From positions 1,612,001 to 1,676,000 of the forward strand of contig NZ_CP125957.1 of assembly GCF_030064125.1 (NCBI RefSeq): a DNA stretch of 64,000 bases, written 5' to 3'. Below, in pieces: positions 11,164-27,076 of the stretch; position 1 is the first letter of the stretch, and every line of letters begins with the position of its first letter. Both the position numbers and the translations under genes were made by a program. The notes under the pieces are model-generated. The model was given only the letters and a program-made list of their open reading frames with translations, did not search any database and had not been told where the DNA came from. The DNA is from Pseudomonas sp. G2-4 (GTDB lineage Bacteria; Pseudomonadota; Gammaproteobacteria; Pseudomonadales; Pseudomonadaceae).

Positions 11164-14100
11164 ATGGACGACCGCCAATACACTTTCCTGGCCCGCCAAC
11201 CTTCCGCTGCCCTGCAAACCCGCGAGCAGTTCTGGGGCATGCCCAAGCGTGGCCTGGCGTTCCTGTTGGCCAACGTCATGTTCTGGCAACCGCTGTGGGC
11301 CCAGGCCGAAGGCATTGTGGTCAGCGCACCGGGCACCGGCCTGGACCGGGCGGGCAACGGCGTGCCCATCGTCAACATCGCCCGGCCCAACGGCAGCGGC
11401 CTGTCCCACAACAAATTCAAGGACTACAACGTCGGCAGCAACGGCGTCATCCTCAACAACGCCACGTCCCGCACCCAGTCCACACAACTGGGTGGGATCA
11501 TCCTTGGCAACCCGAACCTCAACGGCACGGCCGCCAAGATCATCCTCAACGAAGTCAACGGCGGTAACCCCAGCCAACTGCGCGGCTACACCGAAGTGGC
11601 GGGGCAATCGGCCCACGTCATTGTCGCCAACCCACATGGCATTACGTGTAATGGCTGCGGGTTTATCAACACGCCCAGGGCGACCCTGAGCACAGGTAAA
11701 CCGATCATCGAAAACGGCCAATTGAACCGCTACCAAGTGGATCAGGGCAGCGTCTCCATCGAAGGCGCGGGCCTTAACGCAACCAATGTCGACCGCTTCG
11801 AAATCATCACCCGCAGCGCGAAGATCAACGCCGAAATCCAGGCGAAAAACCTGACCATCGTCGCCGGCCGCAACGACGTCAATGCGGGCACCCTCAACGC
11901 CACTGCTCGTGCCGACGACGGTAGTGCTAAACCGCAACTGGCCATCGACTCCTCGGCCCTGGGCGGCATGTACGCCGGCGCCATCAAACTGGTGGGCACC
12001 GAGGCCGGGGTTGGGGTGAAGTTGGACGGTAAGCTGATTGCCAGCGGTGGTGATATTCAGCTCGATTCCAATGGGCAGTTGAGCATGGTCGATGCTTCGG
12101 CCAGTGGCGCTGTGAACGTGAAGGCTGCGAGCCTTGATTCTCGGGGATCGGTTTACGCTGGCACGACACTGAGCGCTCAAACGCAGGGCGATCTGACCAA
12201 CCAGCAAACCCTCGCGGCGCGGGACAGCATCGTGCTCGATGCGGGTGGGCGGTTGAGTAATAGCGGGATTATCGAGGCTGGGGTTAATGCTGATAACACC
12301 CGTAATGCCACGGGGGATGTGAGCGTTACGGCGCAGAACCTGAACAACAACGGCAAGAGTGTCATTGCCAGCCGTAACCTGACGGCCAACGTTGCGCAGA
12401 CGTTGAACAACCAAGGCGGGACCTTGAGTGCCGGGCAAACCGGTACGGTAAAAGCCGGGACCTTGAATAATCAGAGCAAGGGGCGGGTGCTGAGCAACGG
12501 CGCGCTGAACGTGACCGCCGACAAGCTCCTCAATGCCCAAGGCCTCGTCAGCAGCAATGGCAACCTGACGGCCAATGTCGGGCAACTCAACAACAGCAAC
12601 GGCGAACTCAACAGCTTGAGTAACGTCACGTTGCGCGTCGCGTCGTTGGATAACGTGGCGGGGCTGGTCGCGGCCGGCCAAGTGCTGGACATCAACGCCA
12701 GTGGTCAGGTGAACAACCGAGGCGGGCGTCTCACCGCAAGCAAGAGCGTCCAGCTGAATGCTGGATCGATGGATAACACGGCAGGTCGCTTGCTCAGTGA
12801 CGGCGCGCTCACCGCAAGCATCTCGGCGCAGTTGCTCAACCAGACCGGGTTGCTGTCATCGGCCGGGCTGCTGAGCCTCAACGCGCAGCAACTGGATAAC
12901 CGCCAGGGCTCTCTGTATGCCCGGCAAGGGCTGAATCTGAACCTGCGCGGGCAACTGCTCAATGCCCAGGGCGGCGTGAAAAGCGACACCACCGCCAGCG
13001 TCAAAGCGGCCGAGATCAATAACGACGCGGGTCAGCTATCCAGCATCGGTGCGTTGAGCATCCACAGCACCGCCACCCTGAGCAACCTGGGCGGCAGCGT
13101 GATCAGCAGCGACACGCTGCTATTGAAGGCCGGCCAGGTGAATAACGCTGGCGGCCGCATCGCCAGTGCAAAAGCTCTGGATGCCAACGTCAGTGGTCTT
13201 GATCAACAGAACGGCCAATTGGTCAGCAACACCAGCCTTGCCCTCGACCTCAACCACGGGCAGTTGAATAACCAGGGCGGGCTGATCAGTGCTCCGGGCA
13301 GCTTGCTGCTGAAAAACCTGGCCGCGGTGAACAACCGCGACGGCGAGATCTCCAGTGACCAGGCCTTCAGCCTGAACGCCACGAGCCTGGACAACAGCGC
13401 CGGTTCGATCGCCAGCAAGCAGAACCTCAACCTGGTCATCGCCCAAGCCTTGAACAACACCAAAGGCCTGATTGCGGCCAACGGTCTCGAGGTCCGCGCC
13501 GCCAGCCTGGACAACAGCGGCGGCACCCTGGGCAGCGACACCGACCTGACCGTCAATGTCGACGGGACGTTGAACAACCAGGATGGCGAAATCTCCAGCG
13601 CAGGCCTGACCCGGCTCAACGCGATGGCGCTGAATAACGGCAACGGTCAGGTCTTGGGCGACAAGGCCTTGAATATCACCCTTGGCGGTGCGCTGGACAA
13701 CCGCAACGGTGTGCTCGGTTCGGGCAAGGTCGTGGATATCCAGGCGGCCAGCCTGAACAACAGCAATGGCGGGCAAGTGATCAGCGACGGCACCCTGGCC
13801 GCGCGCATCAGCGGCCTGCTGGATAATCAGAGTCTGGGTGAAGTGGCCGCCAAAGGCGCACTTGACCTGCAAACCGGCGCCATCGACAACCGTGGCGGTC
13901 GCCTGTCCGGCTATGACCTGCTGACGTTGCACAGCGATTCGCTCGACAACCGCGGTGGGAACATCCGCGCCGACAAGGCGCTGCAGTTGACGGTTGATCA
14001 ACTGGACAACCGTAGCAACGGCATCATTACCGGCAAGGCTGGCATCCACTTCGAAGGCTCGCGGTTGGATAACAGCAGCGGCCTGCTGACAAGCGCAGGT

Positions 14101-17100
14101 CCACTCACCTTGAAGGCCGCTGAGGTGCAGAACGGCCTCGGTCGCATCTCCAGCCAAACCGACCTCACCGCCGTGATCGATACCCTGCAGCAACAGGGCG
14201 GTGCGCTGGTGGCCCAAGGCAACCTGAGCCTGGCGGGCAGCACACTGGATAACCGCAACGGCGGTTTGGTCGGCACCACAAAAGCGCTGGATTTGCAGGT
14301 CGGGCAGATCGATAACCGGGCGGGCGAACTGTCCGCAGGGCTTGGCGTGAAGGTTGGCGGTCAACGGCTGGACAACAGCGCTGGCGGCAAACTCATCGCC
14401 GGCACTGACCTGGAATTGAAAGTCGCTCAACTGATCAACCAGAACAAAGGATTGATCCACGCTCAAGGCCGCATGACGCTCAGCGGCAGCACGCTGGACA
14501 ACACCGATGGCGCAATCGCTAGCCTCAACGGCCTGGTGATCACCCTCGATAACACCTTGTTGAACAACAAAGGCTTGATCAGCAGCGAGGGCGAGCTGAC
14601 CGTCAACGCAGGCAGCCTCGATAACTCCGTTGGCAGCTTGGGCAGCGCTGGCGCGTTGTCGATTGTGAGCAGTGGCGGGCTGACCAACCAGGGCGGCTCC
14701 ATCAGCACCGATGCCGCCCTGACCCTTAAAAGCGTCAGCCTGGACAACAGCCAGAAGGGCCTGATTTCGGGCAACGCCGCGACGCAAATCACCACCGGCG
14801 CCCTCAACAACAGCCAGGGCGGGCGCCTGACCTCAGGCAATACGCTCCAGCTTGATGCCACGCAGGTGAATAACGCCGCCGGCCGCATCGCCAGCAGCCA
14901 AGCCTTGACCGCCTCGGTCACCGGGCTCGATCAACAGCAAGGGGAATTGTTCAGCAACACCAGCCTGCGCCTGGACATGAACCAGGGCCAGTTGAACAAC
15001 CAGGCCGGCCTGATCAACGCTTCGGGTGCGTTGCTGTTGAGTAACCTCAAGGACGTCAACAACCAGAACGGTGAAATCTCCAGCCAGCAAGCCTTCACTC
15101 TGGCAGCGCAAAACCTCGATAACAGCGGCGGTAAATTGCTGAGTAACCAAGGCCTGGTGCTGAGAACCGCCCAGGCCCTGAACAATGCCCGGGGCGTCAT
15201 TTCCGCAGCGTCGTTGGACAGCCGCAGCAACAGCCTGGACAACAGCGATGGCCTGATCAGCAGCCGAGCTCAGCTCGACCTGAATGTGCAAACCCTGCTC
15301 GACAACCAACGCGGCTCGCTGATTGCCGACGGTGCGCTGCTGCTGACGGCTGATCACCTCGACAACCGTGCTGCAAACATCGCCGGCAAGGCCGGGCTCA
15401 ACGCCACCGTCACCCGCCTGGATAACCGCCAAGGCACGCTGATCAGCACCACCGACCTGACATTGAAAGCGTCCAGCCTCGACAACCGGCAGGCCGGTCT
15501 GATCGGCGCGACAAAAGCGCTGGAACTGGACGTTGACGATCTCGACAACCGTGGCGGTGAGCTGACGGGCAATGCAGACGTCACGCTGGTCAGCCAAAAC
15601 CTCGACAACAGCGACGGCGGCCAGGTGTTCGCCGGGCAAGCGCTGAAACTGACCGTGGATAAACTGCTCAACCGCACCAAAGGCCTGCTCAGCGCCAAGA
15701 CTAAGCTGAGCCTCGATGGCGGCTCCCTGGACAACAGCGGCGGTTATCTGGTCAGTCAGCAGAATCAGCGCATCAGTCTGAGCCGCGATCTGAATAACAC
15801 CCAAGGCCAACTCAGCAGCGAAGGCACGCTGAACATCAGCGCAGCCAACCTGACCAACACCGGCGGCAGCCTGTCCAGCGCGGCGGACCTCACCGTGCAC
15901 AGCCTGGGGCGGCTCGACAACCAGGGCGGCGAACTGGTCACCGACGGCGCGCTGCTGCTGACCAGCACGGCGCTGGATAATCGCCAGCAGGGCAACATCA
16001 GCGGCAAAGGCGCGGTGAGCGTCACCACCGGCGCTTTCGACAACAGCCAGAACGGTCGCCTCAATAGCGGCGCTACGCTGAACCTGCAGGCCGGCCAAGT
16101 CACCAACCAGAACGGTGGACGCATCGGCAGCCAAGGTGCGTTGACCGCTTCGGTTTCCGGCCTGGATCAACAGGGCGGCCAACTGTTCAGCAACACTTCC
16201 CTGAGCCTGGACACGAACAACGGCCAGCTCAATAACCAGAATGGCTTGATCAACGCCCCCGGCACCTTGCTGCTGAAAAACCTCAACGGCGTGAACAACC
16301 AGGGCGGCGAAATCTCCAGCGCCCAGGCGTTCACCCTGGCGGCGAAAAACCTCAACAACGACAACGGCCGGCTGCTCAGCAACCAGGGCCTGACCCTGCG
16401 CATCGCCCAGGCCTTGAACAACGTCAAAGGCGTGATCGGCGCGGCCACCCTCGACGCCCGGGCTCAAAGCCTGAACAACAACGGCGGCACCCTCACGAGC
16501 CGCGGCAACCTTGACCTGACAATTGATCAACAATTGGATAACCAGGCCCAAGGCCTGATCAGCGCCGCGCAACGCCTGACACTCAACAGCGGCGACTTGA
16601 ACAACCAGAGCGGCAGCGTGCTGGCGGGCGGCGCTTTGGTCCTCAACGCCATGGCCCTGAACAACAGCGCCAACGGCCTGATCAATGCCCAGGATAACCT
16701 CACGCTTGGCGCCGATTCGCTGGACTCCAGCGACGGTGGTGAAGTGTCGGCCAAGGGCGACATGAACCTGACCCTATCGGCGCTCACCCAAAATGGCGGT
16801 CGCCTGATGGGCGAGAAAGCCCTCACGCTGAACCTGGGCGGCCATGACCTGAGCAACCGCAATGGCCTGATCACCGCCAAAGGTCCGCTGACCCTCAACG
16901 GCCTGCGCGACCTGAACAACCAGGGCGGTGAAATTTCCAGTAGCCAGAGCTTCAACCTGGCCGGGCGCACCCTCGACAACACGGGCGGCAAGCTGATCAG
17001 CAGCAACCTGCTCAGCCTCAACGCCACCAACGTGCTCAACCAGAACGGCCTGATCTCCGGCTGGCAGGGGTTGGACGTCCGCGGCACCAGCCTGGACAAC

Positions 17101-20100
17101 CGCAACAACGGCACACTCTCCAGCCGCAATGGAGACGTTGGCGTCACCCTCAGTGGGGCGCTGCTCAACAGCGGCGCCGGTGCGTTGGTCGGGCAGAAAA
17201 AACTGACTGTCAGCGCCGCCAGCCTGGATAACAGCGGTGGCGGGATTCTTTCCAGCAGCGGCGACCAGACCCTGACCGTCATCGGCGGTTTGCTGAATAA
17301 CGCCCAAGGCGGCTTGATCGACAGCGGTGCTGTGCTGGTCATGAACGCCATGACCCTGGGCAACGCCGGCGGTACCGTCAACGCGCAAAAAGCTCTGAGC
17401 TTCACCGGCTCTGTGCTGGATAACAGCGGTGGCAACCTGATCGGCAACGCCGCCGTGACCCTGGACCTGCTCGGCGCCTTGACCAATACCAATGGCAAGA
17501 TCGCTAGCGTCGGCCCGCTGCGGGTCGAGCGCGCCACGCAGATCAATAACCAGGGCGGCCAGATCGCCAGCCAGGGCCTGCTGACCTTGCTCACCGATGG
17601 CCTGGACAACAGCAATACGGGCACCCTCGCCGCGAAAAATGCGCTGCTAATCACAGCCTCCGGAGCCGTGCAGAACCACACCAATGGCCTGATCTACAAC
17701 CAGACGGCCGACGTTGCACTCAATGCCGCGAGCCTTGCCAACGGCCAGGGTGAGATGCAAGGCCAGACCGGCCTGAGTCTTGAACTGCGCGCAGGCCTGG
17801 ACAACCAGGGCGGAAAACTCATCGCCCAAACCGGCGATGTCAGCGTGACTGCGGCCAGCATCGACAACCGTGGCGGCACCCTCGCCAGCCTCAAGGGCGC
17901 CCTTGAGGCGAGCACCGTGGGCGTGCTGCGTAACGGCTTCGATGTGAACAACAAGGGCGGTGTGATTCAAGGCCAACGTCTGGACCTGCGCGCCTTGGCC
18001 GGGCTGAACAACAACGGCGGTCGAATCGCCGCGCAGGCGGGCGATATCGTCATCGACACCGCCAGCCTGAACAACCGCAGTGGTGGTCTCTACGCGTCTG
18101 GCCTGATCAAGGTCTCCGGCGCCGGTGCCAGCCTGGACAACGCCGCCGGTCAGATCGCCGGCAATGCCATCCATTTGGATCTGGACGGCGCCCTGACCAA
18201 CCGTGGCGGCATTCTGGAAAGCGACAGCACCTTGGTGGTGAGCGCCGCGAGCCTCGATAACCAGACCGGCCAACTGCGTGCCCTAGGGGGCGCTGGCAAA
18301 ACCGACTTCCAGATCGGCAGCCTCTTCGACAACCGCAACGGCAAGCTGGAAAGCGTCAACAGTCAGCTGACCCTGTCCGCCAACAGCTTCCTCAACGGCG
18401 GCGGCCAACTGCTGCATCTAGGCGACGGCACGTTCGACATCTCCCTGGCCAACGTCACCGGCGCTGGCGGCGACATCGTCACCCGTGGCGGCCTGACGCT
18501 CAAGGCCGATACCTGGACGAACACCAGCGCCATCCAGGCCGGACGGTTGACGGTCGACGTCAACAACTTCACCCAGACCGAGACCGGGCAACTGCTGGCT
18601 TCGACGCAACTGGAAGGCAAGGGCGGGAACTGGGTTAACAACGGGTTGATCGCCAGTGATGGTGGCCTGGGCTTGCAGTTGACCGGGCGGTACAGCGGCA
18701 ATGGCCGAGTCACCAGCCTGGGCGACATGACGGTAGACGCCGCTGCGATCGACTTGAGTAGCGTGGCGAGTATCACCGGTGGCGGGACCACGACGATCGG
18801 TGGGCGCGGTGGCCTGGGCAGCCTGAACAACTACGGGCGGATGACGTCGGCGGGTGCGCTGAATATCACTGCGGGCACCATTAATAACTATGGAACGGTT
18901 GCCGGTGCGGATGGATTGAAACTGACGGCTTCGACCTTGCTGAACGATCAAGGTGGGTTTTTGTTCAGCGGTGGCGACATGAAGCTGCGGGTGGGGAGTT
19001 TCACCAACCGTAAGTCGGATGTTTATGCGCTAGAGAACATTGATGTAGCGCGCAATGACCTGGGGGGACGGTCGGCGTTGATGGAGAATGATTCGGGCAC
19101 CATGGAGAGTGGGCTGGATTTTTCTATTAATGCGGATTCGATTATTAATAAGCGAGGGGACTTCAAGACTGAGGCGGAGTTGTATTCGTCGGCGTTGGGC
19201 TTTCGTTGCTATAGTTGTAATTCGCTTCCTACGTCTGGGACATGGGAACAATTACCTTCCTCGTATTTGGTTTTTCAGCAAAAGTATCGCGTAGTAGTGT
19301 CTGGGGACTCTGAAGCCAAAGCGGCCTCCTTGAATGCAGGAAAAAAGCTGACTGTTCAAGGAGGTTCGTTTTTAAATTCAAACTCATCTGTCACCGCGGG
19401 AGGTGATATTGCTATAAATGTAGACGGTTTTGAGAATTCAGCTACTGCATTGGGGGATTACACGAGTTATCAATATTATTCTGACTATAGCCCGTTCTTG
19501 GATACGATGAGGCAGGTTGTAAATTACAATATACATAATGATGCTGACTATAATGAGGATATGCGCTTTTGGAATGCTGCGGGAGTTGAGTCCATAGCTT
19601 ATTCACGCGTTCTCCGTCAGGGGTCTAAGAATCCGGATAAGGAAAGTGTTCAAGTTATCGGTCCGGTGACCTTGCACCTTTCATGGTCTTGGGATATATC
19701 ATCGGCGATCATATTCGAAGCTTCTAAATACTCAACGGGCGTTCGCGCGGATTTGCCTGCCTTCATAAAAAATCTCAACGCATTTAAATCTGAAGTTTTT
19801 TCTACCACTTCATCTGATAGCTTTGCTCCCGCCATCATCCAAGCCGGCGGCAACGTCTCCATTACCGCAACAAACAAAATCACCAACGGCGTGGAGCGCC
19901 CGTTCTCCACCGGCATAACGACTTCCTCCCGCAACACCACAACCGCCGCCTCAGGCTCAGGCAAAACCACGGTCGTGACCCTGAACAGCCAACTCCCACC
20001 GGACTTGGCCCAACAACAAATAAACCCCCTGACACTCCCCGGCTTCAGCCTCCCCACCGGTCAAAATGGCCTGTTCCGGCTGAGCGGGCAGGGCGCCAGC

Positions 20101-23100
20101 GACGCGTCAGTGTCCCAGACGCCGCCCGTGTCGCAGAACTGGACAATCGGCGGCGCCAGCGTGAGCGCATTGAATCGATCGACCGCCACCCCAACCGCCA
20201 ATGTGCGCGACATCCAGATCACCGATGTCACCCAGGTTTCCGCCGCCGAACGACAGGTGCAATTATTGAATCGTGAGAGCGGTAGCGTCACGGCTGGCGC
20301 GTCCGCCATTCAGGTCAGCGCTCCAACGGACTCATCCACAAGCACGCCACAACTGCCAGGGCATTCCCTTGACAGCACCGTCACCCGTGGCGCCGACATT
20401 GCGTTGGACACTTCGGGCACTCCACCGATCGACGCCTCGGTAAGCGCACCAGTGCCTGTCACAGGCCAAACGGTGGCGCGGGTGACGGGGCTGCCGAGTA
20501 CGGCTGTTACCTCAACGACACATAAATACTTGATCGAGACCAATCCGGTCCTTACCAACCTCAAGTCATTCACCAGTTCGGATTATCTGCTGACGAAACT
20601 CGGCTACGACGCGGACACCAGCGCCAAACGCCTGGGCGACGGTCTGTTCGAACAGCGTTTAATCCAACAAGCCGTCGTCGCTCGCACTGGCCAGCGTTTC
20701 ATCGACGGCCAGACTTCCGACGATGCGATGTTCAAGTACCTGATGAACAACGCCATCGCCAGCAAGGACGCACTCAACCTGTCGATGGGCATCACCCTCA
20801 CCGCCCAACAAGTTGCCGCCCTGACCCACGACATCGTCTGGCTCGAAGAGCACGAAGTGAACGGCGAAAAGGTGCTGGTGCCGGTGCTGTATATGGCCCA
20901 GGCCAATAACCGCCTGGCACCTAATGGCGCGTTGATTGCCGGGCAGGACGTTACGTTGATTGCCGGCAAGGATCTGGAGAACGCCGGCACGCTTCGAGCC
21001 ACCAATAATCTTTCCGCTACCGCAGGCCAGAACCTTGCCAACAGCGGACTGATTGAAGCCGGCAATCGCCTCGACATGTTAGCTGGCAACACCATTGTCA
21101 ACCAATCCGGCGGCATCATCGCCGGGCGTGACATCAGCATGAATGCGCTGGTTGGCGACATCATCAACGAGCGCACGTTGACCACCGCAAGTGTCAGCAA
21201 CAAGGGCTATACCCAGCGGCAGGACTATGCAGATAACGCCTCGCGTATCGAGGCGGCCAACGACCTGACCATGGGCGCCGGTAGAGACGTCAACAGCGTC
21301 GGCAGTGTCATGGTCAGCGGGCGCGACACGCAAATCGATGCAGGGCAGGATGTGAATATAGTCTCTGCGCAGCAGCAGACCTCCAACACCGGTGGTACCC
21401 GCAGAAGTTCAATCACCCAACTGGGCTCGGAGGTAGATGCCGGTCGCGACGTCGTTGTGAATGCCGGCCGAGACTTCAATGCCATCGCCAGCAAGATCAG
21501 TGCCGACCGCAATGTAGCCTTGGCCGCCGACGAGGACATGATCATTGCCTCAGGCGCCAACGAAACTCACTCTTACCGCAAGTCGAAAAAGGTCACTGCT
21601 CAAGAGGATCACGTCAAACAGGTCGGCAGCGCTATCAATGCTGGAGGCGACGTGAGGTTGGACGCCGGGAAAGACATGGCGCTTATCTCCAGTCGTATCA
21701 ACGCCGGTGACGAGGCTTACTTGCTGGCTGGAGAGAACCTGGCACTCCTGGCAGCACAGAATAGCGATTATTCGTTGTATGAGAAAAAGAAGAAGGGCAG
21801 TTTTGGGAAAAAACAGAATCGGCGAGATGAGCTGACCAAGGTAACTCATGTGGGAAGTGAGATCACCACTGGGGGCAATCTGACGCTGTTCAGTGGTGGG
21901 GATCAACGGTATCAAGTAGCGAAGCTGAACAGTGGCAACGATGCAGCGTTGCTGAGCGGCGGTGCGATTACCTTTGAAGGCGTAAAGGATCTCGTTCAAG
22001 AAAGCCACACGAAGAATAATTCCAGCATGGCCTGGAACTCCATGAAGGGTAAGGGCCACACTGACGAAACCTTGCGCCAGAGCCAACTAATGGCGAAAGG
22101 TGATTTGATCATCCAGGCCGTTGACGGCTTGAACATCGATATCAAGCAGATCAATCAGAAGTCTGTCAGCCAGACTATCGATGCGATGGTAAAGGCCGAC
22201 CCTGAGCTGGCGTGGTTGAAGGAGGCTGAAAAACGAGGCGACGTCGACTGGCGTCGTGTGGAGGAAATCCACCAGAGCTTCAAATATTCAAGCTCAGGGC
22301 TTGGCGTTGCCGCCCAAATGGTCCTGGCAATCGTGCTGGCGGTGGTCACGGGCGGTGCTGGAGCAGGTCTGATAGGGGCTACGGGAGGAACCTTCGCGTC
22401 AGGCTTTGCCAATGCGGTGCTGATCGCCGTGGAAACTAACGCAGTCAACAGCGCCATTAGCAACCAAGGTGATTTGGGCGCGGTTCTGAAAGACGTCACC
22501 AGCAGCGAAAGCCTTAAAAGCTATGTGATTTCAGGGATGATGGGCGGCATTGGAAGCAGCCTCGGCTACGATCCGACTAAAATAGGCTTCGATTGGAACA
22601 GTGCCGGCCAGATCGTCTTGAAGACGAGCGCAGAAACCTTGGTCCAAACCGCCCTACAGGGCGGCAGCCTTGGCGATAACTTTGTCGATAACCTGCTAGG
22701 CGCCGTCATTGATATTGGCGGTGCTGTTGCCGCCAATGCAGTCGGTGACTACATGGTCGAAGGCAGTCCCTCCAAAATCGCTGCCCACGCCTTGGTGGGT
22801 GGCTTGAAATCGATGGCCATGGGCGGTGATTTCAGGACAGGAGCCTTGGCGGGAGGCGCCAACGAAGCGCTTATTGGATATCTGGCGAAGCTGGTTCTAC
22901 CCGAGGATTATGATCCGAACAAACCGGGAGCCGAGCAGGCTGAGGCCAACCTGTTGGCCATGTCGCAGTTGCTTGGGGTGCTCACAGCAGTGGTTTCAGG
23001 CAGCGACCCGCGTATCGCAGCAGACATCGCCGCCAACGCGACGCAGAACAATTTTCTCAATCACACAGAGAACACCGAGCGTTTGGAGGCCATTAAAGGT

Positions 23101-23994
23101 TGTAACAATGGCGATCAGCAGGCCTGTGCCCGTAGGGAAGAGCTTAATCTACTGGACGTGAATCGTGATAAGGCCGTTTGGGCGGCGTGTGATGGAGCTG
23201 CCACGAGCCCAGCCTGCACTGCCGCGCGGACGGAAGCCCAGATAGCTCGATTTGACCTCTTGAGGCATTTGGACAATCCGGAAGCGCAAGCGCAATTGCA
23301 AAAGGATTTGAAAGATCCTGCGTTGATGAATTTTACGATTCTGGGTGAGTTGCGCAGTATCAAGATGCTGGATGATGCGGTCATTCGTCAAATTTCAACC
23401 AGTATCAGCAAGAGCCTGTTTTCGATAGGAACTAACCTGGCGCCGGGGATTGGGGATGTAAAGGCTTTTGCAGAAGCTGAGGATGCATGGGACTATATTT
23501 TTGCATCGATAGGTGTGGTCCCTGGCGCTGGTGATATTTTTGCTATAGGGATGCGTGAGAGCAGAGCCCTGCTAAAGGATGGCAAGGCGCAGGAAGCCAG
23601 TGATCTACTTGGAAGCTTGGCGACTTATGCTTCGGATGCAAAAGACGCAGGGAAGACCCTGCCTGAAGTGCTCAATCCGACCTACAGGGAACTAAAGGGG
23701 TTGAATAAAGGTTTTCAAGCGCATCACACCCTACCGCAGTATTTGGGGGAGATGTTGGGGTACAGCCGTAACGATATGCTTGATCATCCGGCTACTTTGA
23801 TTACTCAATATGCTCACACTGGAGCGATTAATCCAGATGCCATGCATAAAGCGATCAATCAATATTTGCCGCCAATGAAGGAAGGTAAAAAAGCAATCTA
23901 TACCTCTGGTCAAATAAAAACGGGGTTGCAGCAGGCTTATAAGGATATTGGGCGTCCCGAACTCTTTGAGTCTATTAAACATTTAATTAAGTAG
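11164..23994 (+). CDS. TpsA filamentous haemagglutinin / CdiA-like exoprotein with C-terminal toxin
   Basis: A 4276-residue two-partner secretion exoprotein. Order: an extended signal region (residues 1-48, ending WAQA); a TPS secretion domain (about 49-300) with the conserved LGNPNL and ANPHGITCNGCGFIN motifs (Cys162, Cys165); a very long FHA-1 beta-helix of degenerate repeats of the type LDN-GG-L-S (about 300-2640); an AT-rich, Tyr-rich non-repetitive insert with Cys2682 and Cys2685 (about 2646-2899); a Ser/Thr/Pro-rich linker (about 2900-3210); FHA-2 repeats (about 3250-3650); a DUF637-like hydrophobic region (about 3680-3810); a pretoxin boundary QNNFL at 3961-3965; and a C-terminal toxin region with AHH at 4186-4188. 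This is the CdiA layout: stick, receptor-binding tip, then delivered toxin. The AHH and later His residues suggest an HNH/Endo VII-superfamily nuclease, an inference from motif only. Confidence 0.93.
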   Translation: MDDRQYTFLARQPSAALQTREQFWGMPKRGLAFLLANVMFWQPLWAQAEGIVVSAPGTGLDRAGNGVPIVNIARPNGSGLSHNKFKDYNVGSNGVILNNATSRTQSTQLGGIILGNPNLNGTAAKIILNEVNGGNPSQLRGYTEVAGQSAHVIVANPHGITCNGCGFINTPRATLSTGKPIIENGQLNRYQVDQGSVSIEGAGLNATNVDRFEIITRSAKINAEIQAKNLTIVAGRNDVNAGTLNATARADDGSAKPQLAIDSSALGGMYAGAIKLVGTEAGVGVKLDGKLIASGGDIQLDSNGQLSMVDASASGAVNVKAASLDSRGSVYAGTTLSAQTQGDLTNQQTLAARDSIVLDAGGRLSNSGIIEAGVNADNTRNATGDVSVTAQNLNNNGKSVIASRNLTANVAQTLNNQGGTLSAGQTGTVKAGTLNNQSKGRVLSNGALNVTADKLLNAQGLVSSNGNLTANVGQLNNSNGELNSLSNVTLRVASLDNVAGLVAAGQVLDINASGQVNNRGGRLTASKSVQLNAGSMDNTAGRLLSDGALTASISAQLLNQTGLLSSAGLLSLNAQQLDNRQGSLYARQGLNLNLRGQLLNAQGGVKSDTTASVKAAEINNDAGQLSSIGALSIHSTATLSNLGGSVISSDTLLLKAGQVNNAGGRIASAKALDANVSGLDQQNGQLVSNTSLALDLNHGQLNNQGGLISAPGSLLLKNLAAVNNRDGEISSDQAFSLNATSLDNSAGSIASKQNLNLVIAQALNNTKGLIAANGLEVRAASLDNSGGTLGSDTDLTVNVDGTLNNQDGEISSAGLTRLNAMALNNGNGQVLGDKALNITLGGALDNRNGVLGSGKVVDIQAASLNNSNGGQVISDGTLAARISGLLDNQSLGEVAAKGALDLQTGAIDNRGGRLSGYDLLTLHSDSLDNRGGNIRADKALQLTVDQLDNRSNGIITGKAGIHFEGSRLDNSSGLLTSAGPLTLKAAEVQNGLGRISSQTDLTAVIDTLQQQGGALVAQGNLSLAGSTLDNRNGGLVGTTKALDLQVGQIDNRAGELSAGLGVKVGGQRLDNSAGGKLIAGTDLELKVAQLINQNKGLIHAQGRMTLSGSTLDNTDGAIASLNGLVITLDNTLLNNKGLISSEGELTVNAGSLDNSVGSLGSAGALSIVSSGGLTNQGGSISTDAALTLKSVSLDNSQKGLISGNAATQITTGALNNSQGGRLTSGNTLQLDATQVNNAAGRIASSQALTASVTGLDQQQGELFSNTSLRLDMNQGQLNNQAGLINASGALLLSNLKDVNNQNGEISSQQAFTLAAQNLDNSGGKLLSNQGLVLRTAQALNNARGVISAASLDSRSNSLDNSDGLISSRAQLDLNVQTLLDNQRGSLIADGALLLTADHLDNRAANIAGKAGLNATVTRLDNRQGTLISTTDLTLKASSLDNRQAGLIGATKALELDVDDLDNRGGELTGNADVTLVSQNLDNSDGGQVFAGQALKLTVDKLLNRTKGLLSAKTKLSLDGGSLDNSGGYLVSQQNQRISLSRDLNNTQGQLSSEGTLNISAANLTNTGGSLSSAADLTVHSLGRLDNQGGELVTDGALLLTSTALDNRQQGNISGKGAVSVTTGAFDNSQNGRLNSGATLNLQAGQVTNQNGGRIGSQGALTASVSGLDQQGGQLFSNTSLSLDTNNGQLNNQNGLINAPGTLLLKNLNGVNNQGGEISSAQAFTLAAKNLNNDNGRLLSNQGLTLRIAQALNNVKGVIGAATLDARAQSLNNNGGTLTSRGNLDLTIDQQLDNQAQGLISAAQRLTLNSGDLNNQSGSVLAGGALVLNAMALNNSANGLINAQDNLTLGADSLDSSDGGEVSAKGDMNLTLSALTQNGGRLMGEKALTLNLGGHDLSNRNGLITAKGPLTLNGLRDLNNQGGEISSSQSFNLAGRTLDNTGGKLISSNLLSLNATNVLNQNGLISGWQGLDVRGTSLDNRNNGTLSSRNGDVGVTLSGALLNSGAGALVGQKKLTVSAASLDNSGGGILSSSGDQTLTVIGGLLNNAQGGLIDSGAVLVMNAMTLGNAGGTVNAQKALSFTGSVLDNSGGNLIGNAAVTLDLLGALTNTNGKIASVGPLRVERATQINNQGGQIASQGLLTLLTDGLDNSNTGTLAAKNALLITASGAVQNHTNGLIYNQTADVALNAASLANGQGEMQGQTGLSLELRAGLDNQGGKLIAQTGDVSVTAASIDNRGGTLASLKGALEASTVGVLRNGFDVNNKGGVIQGQRLDLRALAGLNNNGGRIAAQAGDIVIDTASLNNRSGGLYASGLIKVSGAGASLDNAAGQIAGNAIHLDLDGALTNRGGILESDSTLVVSAASLDNQTGQLRALGGAGKTDFQIGSLFDNRNGKLESVNSQLTLSANSFLNGGGQLLHLGDGTFDISLANVTGAGGDIVTRGGLTLKADTWTNTSAIQAGRLTVDVNNFTQTETGQLLASTQLEGKGGNWVNNGLIASDGGLGLQLTGRYSGNGRVTSLGDMTVDAAAIDLSSVASITGGGTTTIGGRGGLGSLNNYGRMTSAGALNITAGTINNYGTVAGADGLKLTASTLLNDQGGFLFSGGDMKLRVGSFTNRKSDVYALENIDVARNDLGGRSALMENDSGTMESGLDFSINADSIINKRGDFKTEAELYSSALGFRCYSCNSLPTSGTWEQLPSSYLVFQQKYRVVVSGDSEAKAASLNAGKKLTVQGGSFLNSNSSVTAGGDIAINVDGFENSATALGDYTSYQYYSDYSPFLDTMRQVVNYNIHNDADYNEDMRFWNAAGVESIAYSRVLRQGSKNPDKESVQVIGPVTLHLSWSWDISSAIIFEASKYSTGVRADLPAFIKNLNAFKSEVFSTTSSDSFAPAIIQAGGNVSITATNKITNGVERPFSTGITTSSRNTTTAASGSGKTTVVTLNSQLPPDLAQQQINPLTLPGFSLPTGQNGLFRLSGQGASDASVSQTPPVSQNWTIGGASVSALNRSTATPTANVRDIQITDVTQVSAAERQVQLLNRESGSVTAGASAIQVSAPTDSSTSTPQLPGHSLDSTVTRGADIALDTSGTPPIDASVSAPVPVTGQTVARVTGLPSTAVTSTTHKYLIETNPVLTNLKSFTSSDYLLTKLGYDADTSAKRLGDGLFEQRLIQQAVVARTGQRFIDGQTSDDAMFKYLMNNAIASKDALNLSMGITLTAQQVAALTHDIVWLEEHEVNGEKVLVPVLYMAQANNRLAPNGALIAGQDVTLIAGKDLENAGTLRATNNLSATAGQNLANSGLIEAGNRLDMLAGNTIVNQSGGIIAGRDISMNALVGDIINERTLTTASVSNKGYTQRQDYADNASRIEAANDLTMGAGRDVNSVGSVMVSGRDTQIDAGQDVNIVSAQQQTSNTGGTRRSSITQLGSEVDAGRDVVVNAGRDFNAIASKISADRNVALAADEDMIIASGANETHSYRKSKKVTAQEDHVKQVGSAINAGGDVRLDAGKDMALISSRINAGDEAYLLAGENLALLAAQNSDYSLYEKKKKGSFGKKQNRRDELTKVTHVGSEITTGGNLTLFSGGDQRYQVAKLNSGNDAALLSGGAITFEGVKDLVQESHTKNNSSMAWNSMKGKGHTDETLRQSQLMAKGDLIIQAVDGLNIDIKQINQKSVSQTIDAMVKADPELAWLKEAEKRGDVDWRRVEEIHQSFKYSSSGLGVAAQMVLAIVLAVVTGGAGAGLIGATGGTFASGFANAVLIAVETNAVNSAISNQGDLGAVLKDVTSSESLKSYVISGMMGGIGSSLGYDPTKIGFDWNSAGQIVLKTSAETLVQTALQGGSLGDNFVDNLLGAVIDIGGAVAANAVGDYMVEGSPSKIAAHALVGGLKSMAMGGDFRTGALAGGANEALIGYLAKLVLPEDYDPNKPGAEQAEANLLAMSQLLGVLTAVVSGSDPRIAADIAANATQNNFLNHTENTERLEAIKGCNNGDQQACARREELNLLDVNRDKAVWAACDGAATSPACTAARTEAQIARFDLLRHLDNPEAQAQLQKDLKDPALMNFTILGELRSIKMLDDAVIRQISTSISKSLFSIGTNLAPGIGDVKAFAEAEDAWDYIFASIGVVPGAGDIFAIGMRESRALLKDGKAQEASDLLGSLATYASDAKDAGKTLPEVLNPTYRELKGLNKGFQAHHTLPQYLGEMLGYSRNDMLDHPATLITQYAHTGAINPDAMHKAINQYLPPMKEGKKAIYTSGQIKTGLQQAYKDIGRPELFESIKHLIK

Positions 23995-24001
23995 GTGGTT
24001 T

Positions 24002-24451
24002 ATGCTTGATAAGCAGGTATACGATTTGACGGCGCGAGATATCGAAGAGCATGGTGTTTGGTATTTCCCTATGGATGAGACTGTCCAGAACGAGCTAACC
24101 GTACGTCCTATATGCTCTAAGGAGCAGATTGATATAGGGTTTCAAGTCATTGTCAGGGCTTGGTTTCAAACCTGTTGCGGTGCTAGATATATAGGGTATA
24201 TCTATTGGGGTGTTAGTTCGGCCATTGGTCACCTGCAGCCTGTCATGTTTGTCGGTGTGGATCAGTGTATTAATTTTTGGAGTGGGATGAACGAACCGAT
24301 GTGGGAAAACTATTCTCCAGAGCTGCAAGTGATTCGTTCGGATTTTCCCATTTCATTTTCTTCGGAGAGTGTCTTTGATTTACCTGTTGTGGCAGGAGTT
24401 TTGCAAGGGTTGTACAGCCTGAAAGATGGTCAGGTGACAGTATCTACATAA
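24002..24451 (+). CDS. probable immunity protein for the TpsA toxin
   Basis: A 149-residue acidic, cytoplasmic-looking protein starting 7 bases after the TpsA stop, with GTAGGTGG just upstream of its ATG. Position, size and base composition (as AT-rich as the toxin end of tpsA and unlike the rest of the locus) are what is expected of a CdiI-type immunity protein that binds and neutralises the adjacent toxin in sibling cells. I recognise no named immunity family; the central segment is rich in Trp, Tyr and Cys. The function is inferred from context alone. Confidence 0.7.
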   Translation: MLDKQVYDLTARDIEEHGVWYFPMDETVQNELTVRPICSKEQIDIGFQVIVRAWFQTCCGARYIGYIYWGVSSAIGHLQPVMFVGVDQCINFWSGMNEPMWENYSPELQVIRSDFPISFSSESVFDLPVVAGVLQGLYSLKDGQVTVST

Positions 24452-24549: not shown

Positions 24550-24852
24550 ATGAAGAGGGTCGTTTGCCTGTCCAGTGGTGCCGTTTTAGATGCTGCCCTT
24601 GGGCGTTTTCGAGGCAAGGGCGGCGATGAGCAAACATTGCTCAGATCGATGCTCGAACTGGAGTTAAGAGCCGTTGCAGGGGCGGGTGGTCGATATACGC
24701 ATTTCGCTAATGGTTTGATTACGTTGCAGAAAGTTGATGAAGGCGTTTACAAGATCCTTGATCTTGAAATGTTCTATAAAAGTTACGGCTGGTGCGCTGT
24801 CTTACGAGGGGGGGAGTATGCGCCTCCCGGAGATTTTTGGGATGAAGAGTAA
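24550..24852 (+). CDS. small protein downstream of the toxin-immunity pair
   Basis: A 100-residue protein ending in a cluster of acidic residues (GDFWDEE). It has no signal peptide and no family I recognise. It lies 98 bases after the immunity gene, on the same strand, before a terminator. The ribosome site is weak (GAAAGCGAAAA before the ATG). In CDI loci, further small genes here are often orphan immunity genes left behind when toxin cassettes are exchanged; that is a possibility here, not a demonstrated function. The preceding gap holds GGGGACAGATTTGA, which may mark an old recombination joint. Confidence 0.5.
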   Translation: MKRVVCLSSGAVLDAALGRFRGKGGDEQTLLRSMLELELRAVAGAGGRYTHFANGLITLQKVDEGVYKILDLEMFYKSYGWCAVLRGGEYAPPGDFWDEE

Positions 24853-24922: not shown

Positions 24923-25195
24923 TTACTCAGCAGCCTGCGCCCGCAACCGCCTCCCAATCACGTCCATCACATCACAGCCATCGCGCAACGATATCGTCAG
25001 CATTTTGCAGAAGTCAGAAAGCACCACTGTATCGGAGCTGATATCCGAACGGAACGCGATGTTTTCCAGCAGTTGGGTCACGGTGCGGATGCGGTAGTCG
25101 GCGGTTTCGAAGAGGACATCGAGTGGAGCTTCGGTGTCGATGAGCAGGGTAGCGGGGACGCAGTCGATGCCAGTGATGGGCATGTATCGATTCAT
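24923..25195 (-). CDS. small hypothetical protein with a structured leader
   Basis: A 90-residue soluble protein with no signal peptide. It contains a helical segment around LDVLFETADYRIRTVTQLLENIAF and a basic end (IGRRLRAQAAE). Its general pattern is like short Pseudomonas proteins that occur in paralogous sets and have no known role, but I cannot assign a family. It is notable because the element at 25237-25418 lies in its 5' region and would be transcribed on the sense strand. It converges with the CDI locus at the shared terminator 24891-24920. Confidence 0.6.
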   Translation of the reverse strand: MNRYMPITGIDCVPATLLIDTEAPLDVLFETADYRIRTVTQLLENIAFRSDISSDTVVLSDFCKMLTISLRDGCDVMDVIGRRLRAQAAE

Positions 25196-25236
25196 TTTGA
25201 AGATCTCTGTTTGATTGGCTGAAAGCCATCACTCAG

Positions 25237-25418
25237 TCGTCGCCAAACGATTGGGTGGTGGCTGTGCGCAGGTTGGCGAACCGGTTACAGAGAAAACCGG
25301 CAGATCCGAAGATCTCCCGCGCACAGCCGCCGTGGAATATAGCGGCTTTGCGGGTGCGTCGGTACCTGCAATGAGCTGGTAGCTTTCGCATTCTCTGTAG
25401 TCGGGTCGCCAAACCCGA
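25237..25418 (-). ncRNA. candidate structured leader: three-way junction flanked by two matching hairpins
   Basis: Seen directly: stem P1, a 10-base perfect pairing GGCTGTGCGC (25260-25269) / GCGCACAGCC (25319-25328), extendable to 13 with one G-U. It encloses P2, CCGGTT (25281-25286) / AACCGG (25295-25300), and P3, AGATC (25302-25306) / GATCT (25311-25315). On the minus strand the P3 loop is C(UUCG)G, an extra-stable RNA tetraloop. Two further hairpins flank the junction at 25237-25250 (stem TCGT/ACGA) and 25401-25418 (stem TCGGGT/ACCCGA), both with the same six-base loop, TTGGCG on the minus strand. It ends about 40 bases before the gene starting at 25195. Role unknown; a cis-regulatory RNA or a mobile structured repeat is possible. 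Confidence 0.5.
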
Positions 25419-25570
25419 GTCGCCTTTTGGGACGACAACGGACTATAGGCCGCCCCGTTCTCGAGCTACAAGACGCCGCTTTCCGAGCTTTGTGTAGGAC
25501 CTTTGGCCCAGCATCAGTCGGCTTTTGGGGTGCGGCGGTTCAGGCAACGCAGGCGCCTGCTGCGCAGTCG

Positions 25571-25594
25571 AGCGGGAGCAAGCTCCCTCGCCAC
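25571..25594. repeat. single REP sequence, GTGGCGAGGGAGC family
   Basis: AGCGGGAGCAAGCTCCCTCG followed by CCAC is one arm only; no inverted partner is visible nearby. The rest of the 25419-25626 stretch holds no gene that I can support. Confidence 0.85.
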
Positions 25595-25626
25595 GGGGAC
25601 CGCGCTTGACTGGGCCAGTGGGCGTA

Positions 25627-26938: not shown

Positions 26939-26957
26939 CAGGCCTGCACTGAGCCCT

Positions 26958-27045
26958 GTTGGAGCGAGCTTGCTCGCGATAGCGATTGAACAGGCAACAC
27001 ATCTGTTGAATGTCAGACCGCTATCGCGAGCAAGCTCGCTCCCAC
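26958..27045. repeat. REPIN, GTGGGAGCGAGC family
   Basis: GTTGGAGCGAGCTTGCTCGC and its inverted copy ending GCTCGCTCCCAC enclose a short spacer. It lies between convergent genes at 26938 and 27077. Confidence 0.9.
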
Positions 27046-27076
27046 ATTGGATCTCCCACAATGGATCTCAGTGGTT

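Follow-up and report, generated by a model that had tools for sequence, protein, structure and literature searches.

The question raised by this locus is what the structured RNA ahead of a 90-residue gene of Pseudomonas sp. G2-4 is, and what it does. The original prediction placed it in the leader of that gene and offered a regulatory leader, a protein-binding RNA or a new non-autonomous repeat as explanations. When the window (the whole 64-kb stretch of DNA analyzed) was searched with Rfam models, the sole match at gathering score was a full-length hit to the C4 antisense RNA (RF01695), located on the minus strand at positions 25251 to 25337, with a score of 79.7 bits (E 5.5e-14, model positions 1 to 87) against a gathering cut-off of 45 bits. 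The match lies upstream of the 90-residue gene and on the same strand, in agreement with the proposed leader. Judged from its sequence, the structured RNA belongs to the antisense-RNA family typified by phage P1 C4, here in a chromosomal setting, and this membership in a known Rfam family had been missed.

Of the stems described at first, the closing stem corresponds to C4 stem P1, the UUCG hairpin to P2 and the second inner hairpin to P3. The closing stem is present and is longer than the 10 to 13 bp originally given, 16 pairs being counted in the alignment of paralogues. The inner hairpins form the C4 fold on the minus strand, where P2, with its UUCG tetraloop, spans positions 25302 to 25316 and has 5 of 5 helix pairs changed on both sides. 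P3 (25281 to 25301, minus strand) carries in its loop, b', the variable antisense segment UUUUCUCUGUAA at positions 25285 to 25296, and the linker a' (UCGCCAA, 25273 to 25279, minus strand) constitutes the second antisense segment. By analogy with P1, the mature RNA would extend from about position 25331 to 25254 on the minus strand; at the putative RNase P maturation site, a GG is found at 25331 and CCACC on the 3' side of C4.

The two outer hairpins with a common loop, UCGGGUUUGGCGACCCGA at 25401 to 25418 and UCGUUUGGCGACGA at 25237 to 25250 on the minus strand, are also both present, and both hold UUGGCGA. However, they do not represent covariation within one motif, as had been proposed, but two copies of a target. 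The linker UCGCCAA is complementary to UUGGCGA in both loops, as in P1, and the hairpins therefore correspond to a1 and a2, with loop a1 at 25406 to 25412 and loop a2 at 25240 to 25246, each a 7-nt perfect complement of a'. The P3 loop holds UUCUCUGUA, whose complements are UACAGAGAA upstream, the 9-nt b1 site at 25391 to 25399, and ACAGAGA in the ribosome-binding region of the 90-residue gene, the b2 site at 25204 to 25210, a perfect complement of 7 nt (both on the minus strand). Thus, the two antisense segments match a2 and b2 before the next start codon, and a second target copy, a1-b1, lies upstream on the same strand. The leader begins with hairpin I (GTCGTCCCAAAAGGCGAC, 25419 to 25436, minus strand), which occupies the same position as the first hairpin in RF03163 and in the P1 leader.

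The 182-nt region folded on the minus strand with a lower energy than 200 of 200 shuffles (z -4.85), and the plus strand was also stable relative to shuffles (z -4.0); since both strands fold well, energy alone cannot indicate the strand. In addition, the minimum-free-energy fold of the whole region differs from the C4 fold, with a1-b1 paired to the C4 antisense segments and the closing stem open. The C4 fold in the window is supported by the covariance model and by covariation, not by the minimum-free-energy fold.

The P1 record AF234172 is annotated in the order a1, b1, c4, a2, b2 and icd. In P1, a1 and a2 are both TTGACAG, the complement of the C4 linker, and b1 and b2 (GTTAGTGC and GTTAGTGA) are the complement of the P3 loop. 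The window unit resembles the P1/P7 C4 in its fold, its two antisense segments, the order of its sites and a b2 just before the start codon. Measured from the end of the mature C4, which is an inferred end in the window, a2 starts after 4 nt in P1 and 8 nt in the window, and b2 after 33 and 44 nt; b2 lies 10 nt from the ATG in P1 and 8 nt in the window. When 30 of the 32 Pseudomonas copies described below were used to build a covariance model, it recovered P1 c4 with 47.8 bits (E 3.7e-10). Unlike the P1/P7 C4, the window unit resides on a bacterial chromosome and has a 90-residue protein as its target instead of Icd/Ant, so that it lacks the antirepressor target and the phage setting of a P1-type immI; the Pseudomonas units also differ in having many copies per genome, differing codes and a common promoter signature.

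By this likeness to P1, we consider it highly probable that the window unit is a self-silencing leader, in which a co-transcribed C4 represses the translation of the 90-residue gene. A single minus-strand transcript would start near position 25435 and contain, in this order, the 5' hairpin, a1-b1, the C4 RNA, a2-b2 and the gene. RNase P would trim C4 from this transcript. In the freed C4, the linker a' would bind loop a2, and b2, in the ribosome-binding region, would be bound by the P3 loop b' (UCUCUGU), so that translation would be blocked. The upstream a1-b1 would pair with the same C4 segments, probably buffering or delaying C4; the minimum-free-energy fold, in which these elements are paired in the precursor, suggests such a delay or buffer. 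For P1/P7, passages of PMC5320573 and PMC12197685 report that C4 represses at the ribosome site and is matured by RNase P, and they describe Acinetobacter baumannii RNA-seq consistent with C4-type RNA processing.

The window unit is one of about thirty in its genome, and most of the others carry another pairing code. We found 32 C4 matches in the genome (6.65 Mb, one contig), all above the cut-off at 56 to 83 bits, and in 28 of the 32 an intact small family gene follows 45 to 58 nt downstream. These genes comprise 22 of DUF6124 (21 by position, plus L011), 4 of the 90-residue family (L003, L006, L017 and L018) and 2 of the 93/91-residue type (L008 and L015), the last two groups being assigned by reading. 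At L016, the DUF6124 match behind C4 is apparently frame-shifted, and no family gene lies behind C4 at L001, L022 and L027. A Pfam scan of 8 C4-adjacent proteins assigned 4 to DUF6124, and three 90-residue-family proteins and one 93-residue protein had no family at the cut-off. The genome (G000) holds 30 DUF6124 matches; of the 28 that were listed, 22 lie next to a C4 and 6 stand without one. One leader architecture is found, consisting of the promoter region, hairpin I, the a1 hairpin, b1, a spacer, C4, the a2 hairpin, the b2/ribosome site and the ATG, with L027 and L028 lacking the exact a1 string.

In an alignment of 30 of the 32 genome copies (L031 and L032 were left out), 16 of the 26 C4 stem pairs were changed on both sides, and 97.9% of stem cells were paired versus 33 to 43% for slid partners. 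The compensatory changes among homologues that the original prediction looked for are thus present. The protein-coding alternative that it named was also evaluated: the lengths of the C4 copies differ by non-multiples of three, which argues against a coding signal.

The matching of each copy to its own targets was scored with contiguous helices, which replaced gapped duplex energies; the latter allow long interior loops and are therefore a poor measure. By gapped energy, the window's downstream target was not the best of the genome (rank 10 by row and 12 by column), whereas by contiguous helices the window's own target ranked 1 and 2. At least 7 Watson-Crick pairs joined a' to its own a2 in 29 of 32 copies (non-own, 63 of 992, 6.4%) and to its own a1 in 31 of 32 (non-own, 94 of 992, 9.5%). 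With G-U allowed, at least 8 pairs joined b' to its own b2 in 26 of 32 copies (non-own, 122 of 992, 12.3%) and to its own b1 in 20 of 32 (non-own, 252 of 992, 25.4%). For each of the four target sites, 0 of 20000 permutations were as good as the own-target counts, and both downstream sites were matched in 24 of 32 own pairs versus 10 of 992 non-own pairs. With at least 7 Watson-Crick pairs only, 17 of 32 copies matched their own b2 and 12 of 32 their own b1, and b1 is the least convincing of the pairing sites. Among the 32 copies, 31 different b' loops and 14 different a' heptamers occur. Since shared descent alone would not keep several changing sites complementary, the sequences indicate that antisense-target pairing has very likely been selected.

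Upstream of hairpin I, a promoter signature common to other C4 loci (CTACA-N8-RGAA-N8-CTTGT) occupies positions 25468 to 25497 on the minus strand, together with a -10-like TATAGT at 25442 to 25447 and a weak -35-like TTGTAG at 25466 to 25471, with an 18-bp spacer. A strict sigma-70 scan of this region gave no consensus promoter, and hence the promoter and the start sites are inferred from conservation. The genome contains 19 exact and 4 one-mismatch signatures versus 1 for the reversed pattern at up to one mismatch, the pattern having been drawn from the same C4 leaders that were later scored. Exact signatures lie upstream of 16 of the 32 C4 loci (L005 to L007, L009, L010, L012 to L014, L016, L018 to L023 and L025), and a 17th, L002, has one with one mismatch; the upstream sequences of the remaining 15 differ from it. 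Exact signatures at 794086 and 6471753 precede C4-less family genes, and the one at 15304 has no family gene behind it. The window/L123 signature and that of L018 deviate from the common version in variable positions; many of the matches are near-identical, so that part of the sharing reflects descent. A one-mismatch signature at G000:C1:3848285-3848314 (L149) is accompanied by an a1-like UUGGCGA hairpin without a C4 or a family gene, and is possibly a decayed unit or a decoy target; the other two signatures with one mismatch were assigned to no locus.

We also compared the homologues of the 90-residue protein, using the best 80 of 159 loci, all labelled Pseudomonas. In 44 of these 80, the gene is preceded on its own strand by a full C4, and 35 have none, L061, whose C4 is cut by the contig end, being counted as a truncated C4 locus; C4 is therefore dispensable for the gene. 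The gap between C4 and gene is 48 to 65 nt in 38 of the 44 and 220 to 475 nt in the other 6. For a comparison of codes, 44 of 45 C4s (the 44 homologues plus the window, with L113 left out) were parsed into 30 distinct types of loop plus linker. Own helices of at least 8 pairs occurred at b2 in 18 of the 30 types versus 9.5% of non-own pairs, and at b1 in 17 of 30 versus 21.1%; both own means lay above all 20000 permutations. In L089, a change of the b' loop is matched at b1 and b2. Among the loci syntenic with the window (shared DUF899-side flank), L041, L043, L083 and L086 have the same code as the window, another self-consistent code (loop UACCUCGUU, b1 AACGAGGU and b2 AACGAGG) is found in L052 and L066, and six orthologues (L048 to L051, L067 and L069) lack the stretch for C4, a2 and b2. 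Two consistent codes and the absence of C4 at one locus indicate that the code can change as a unit and that C4 can be absent. Pairing of the ribosome site is predicted to be just modestly stronger where C4 is absent: the mean unpaired probability of this site was 0.27 in 28 leaders lacking C4 (including the truncated L061) versus 0.39 in 36 of the 44 C4-bearing ones. In the C4-less leaders of L042, L048 and L072, a stretch beside the former b1 is predicted to pair with the ribosome-binding region, possibly forming a cis hairpin that replaces antisense control.

In a set of 57 relatives, C4 units occurred in 32 of the 36 genomes of the same genus, the window's own among them, and in 4 of the other 21; the expectation of similar sequence ahead of small genes elsewhere in Pseudomonas was borne out. 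Counts in the relatives are lower bounds, with at most 62 candidates scored per genome; same-genus genomes have a median of at least 13.5 copies and a maximum of at least 42, and 23 genomes have at least 10. Across genomes, C4 and DUF6124 counts are correlated (Spearman 0.82), with G009 (40 and 1) and G025 (28 and 1) as C4-rich, DUF6124-poor genomes. In a class-wide sample, with 18 candidates scored per genome, at least 1 to 4 copies occurred in at least 11 of 228 other genomes. Furthermore, 19 hand-picked stretches from eight other same-genus genomes held 22 C4 matches, of which 12 precede genes starting with TPNPP or VPDPP, 1 precedes a 90-residue-family gene and 1 a Bro-N gene; 8 have no gene of these kinds behind them. 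In the Bro-N case (L146, genome G011), C4 at 558 to 644 lies 49 nt before the gene (PF02498, E 1.4e-11), a juxtaposition that ties chromosomal C4 units to phage antirepressor operons. At L139 (G025, 168 to 653), a stretch of less than 500 bases contains three successive C4 matches, of which the first two are weaker, a pattern suggestive of tandem duplication with decay.

The target gene (24923 to 25195, minus strand) encodes a protein of 90 residues for which Pfam, NCBIfam, PHROGs and PADLOC gave no hit at E 0.001 or better; a PADLOC scan of 3 proteins likewise gave no match, nor did a search of the 90-residue protein against 50,697 phage records. The predicted structure of its family is a confident helical hairpin (pLDDT 86.6), for which Foldseek returned nothing at E 0.001 or better (0 of 58 reported for the PDB and 0 of 247 for viral models), and that of DUF6124 is weaker (72.8). 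As a profile comparison found no significant relation between the two families, we do not claim homology. One DUF6124 member matched 1 of the 50,697 phage records, a Pseudomonas phage entry of 22.7 kb in which the match lies 55 bases from the end and may represent host flank; a plasmid search with the same member gave no match. A short N-terminal motif (TPNPP or VPDPP) recurs in C4-controlled proteins whose sequences otherwise differ. By eye, a DUF6124-like coding sequence lies directly upstream of the 90-residue gene in L094, L108, L113, L115 and L117, and in L113 it stands itself behind a C4; this proximity suggests that the two families may work together. Elsewhere in the window, short repeats at 25557 to 25598 and 26956 to 27046, which we take to resemble REP-type palindromes, recur in the flanks of several Pseudomonas loci. 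A 4276-residue open reading frame (11164 to 23994), presumably a filamentous-haemagglutinin/contact-dependent-inhibition exoprotein, is followed by small frames at 24002 to 24451 and 24550 to 24852, which gave no Pfam matches and are possibly immunity genes.

The C4 RNAs might instead act mainly in trans, silencing other genes that include family leaders with an a1 but no C4. UUGGCGA is kept in 27 of the 35 C4-less leaders among the best 80 of 159 homologues, with a GUGGAAG hairpin in 2 more, and, of six C4-less paralogues in the genome, in L122, L123, L124 (which keeps a weak C4 remnant) and L126, where it is matched by the linkers of L003, L006, L017 and L018; L127 has UUCGCAG. L018 fits L126 at both sites: its linker matches perfectly, and 8 Watson-Crick pairs can form directly behind a1, a fit that 39 of 2000 shuffles equalled or bettered before any correction for the four leaders that were tried. 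With G-U allowed, the L025 loop can form 12 pairs with L122, as good a match being reached by 16 of 300 shuffles. The a' codes are also common within classes, with 14 codes for 32 copies, and the 10 non-own pairs of 992 passing at both sites fit such a network. However, the L126 and L122 matches are nominal, for L123, L124 and L127 even the best loop match is no better than expected by chance (59 to 188 of 300 shuffles as good, G-U allowed), L125 has neither heptamer and no a site, and own matches dominate among the 32 copies. In addition, passages of PMC5320573, which names the variable loop a', report that a 4-nt difference stops cross-reaction between the P1 and P7 C4s. We therefore regard a mainly trans-acting network as unlikely; control of C4-less leaders in trans is possible, the sequence matches lending it weak support.

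Among the points against self-silencing are that the window's b2 match has only 7 pairs, that L001, L022 and L027 have no family gene behind C4, and that RF03163 (c4-a1b1) scored 27.3 bits on the window, below its cut-off of 46.7, so that the leader is not a member by Rfam's rule, although it shares with that family a two-hairpin leader with the a1 loop in the second hairpin. C4 was first described in phages, and the three gene-less copies, the truncated, weak remnant at L124 and the six C4-less syntenic orthologues could be read as non-functional phage-derived relics spread by duplication. Nevertheless, stem covariation and own pairing kept across 31 distinct loops need continuing or recent selection, and we find this explanation highly improbable. 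Even less credible is a protein-binding RNA or a non-autonomous mobile repeat: the genome does hold many dispersed copies, but these mostly carry their own genes and their variable parts match their own targets. The C4 family acts by base-pairing and the complementarity is copy-specific, leaving this part of the original prediction unsupported. Self-silencing by a co-transcribed C4 remains our preferred reading of the window unit.

C4 has been worked out in two related phages, and most other members are database predictions. The main expressed case beyond phages appears to be that of A. baumannii, where passages of PMC5320573 describe Group 1 sRNAs that, like the Pseudomonas units, form a large chromosomal C4-type set with a variable target-specificity loop and are apparently processed; in those passages they are presented as sRNAs, without named downstream small-gene targets or coevolution with their own targets. 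The C4 family and, from those passages, a chromosomal C4 set in A. baumannii are thus already known. The related two-hairpin RNA isrK (RF01394) scored 16.7 bits on the window against a cut-off of 50; in Burkholderia cenocepacia, a passage of PMC4603805 places C4 and isrK in one transcriptional unit. In searches of the open-access literature, no title or abstract opening among the papers listed reported C4 arrays or C4-controlled DUF6124 genes in Pseudomonas. As far as these searches reach, the new elements are a large Pseudomonas set tied to its own small target genes, private codes backed by coevolution, and a promoter element at half of the loci.

The C4 units give a regulatory context to DUF6124 and to the 90-residue family, and this context suggests that their proteins may be costly if freely expressed. 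A genus with often ten or more readable codes per genome makes the divergence of duplicated antisense-target pairs into orthogonality testable, and the same C4 sets allow the number of base changes needed for it to be measured. We tentatively propose, with slightly less than even confidence, that the roughly thirty units of this genome form one regulon, in which a common promoter element would switch on many transcripts and the private antisense brake on each, through nearly orthogonal codes, would silence the paralogous small proteins one by one. If so, three to four pairing sites would change in concert as the codes evolve, and the genome would contain a very large natural collection of orthogonal antisense-target pairs that either descends from a phage immunity device or gave rise to one.
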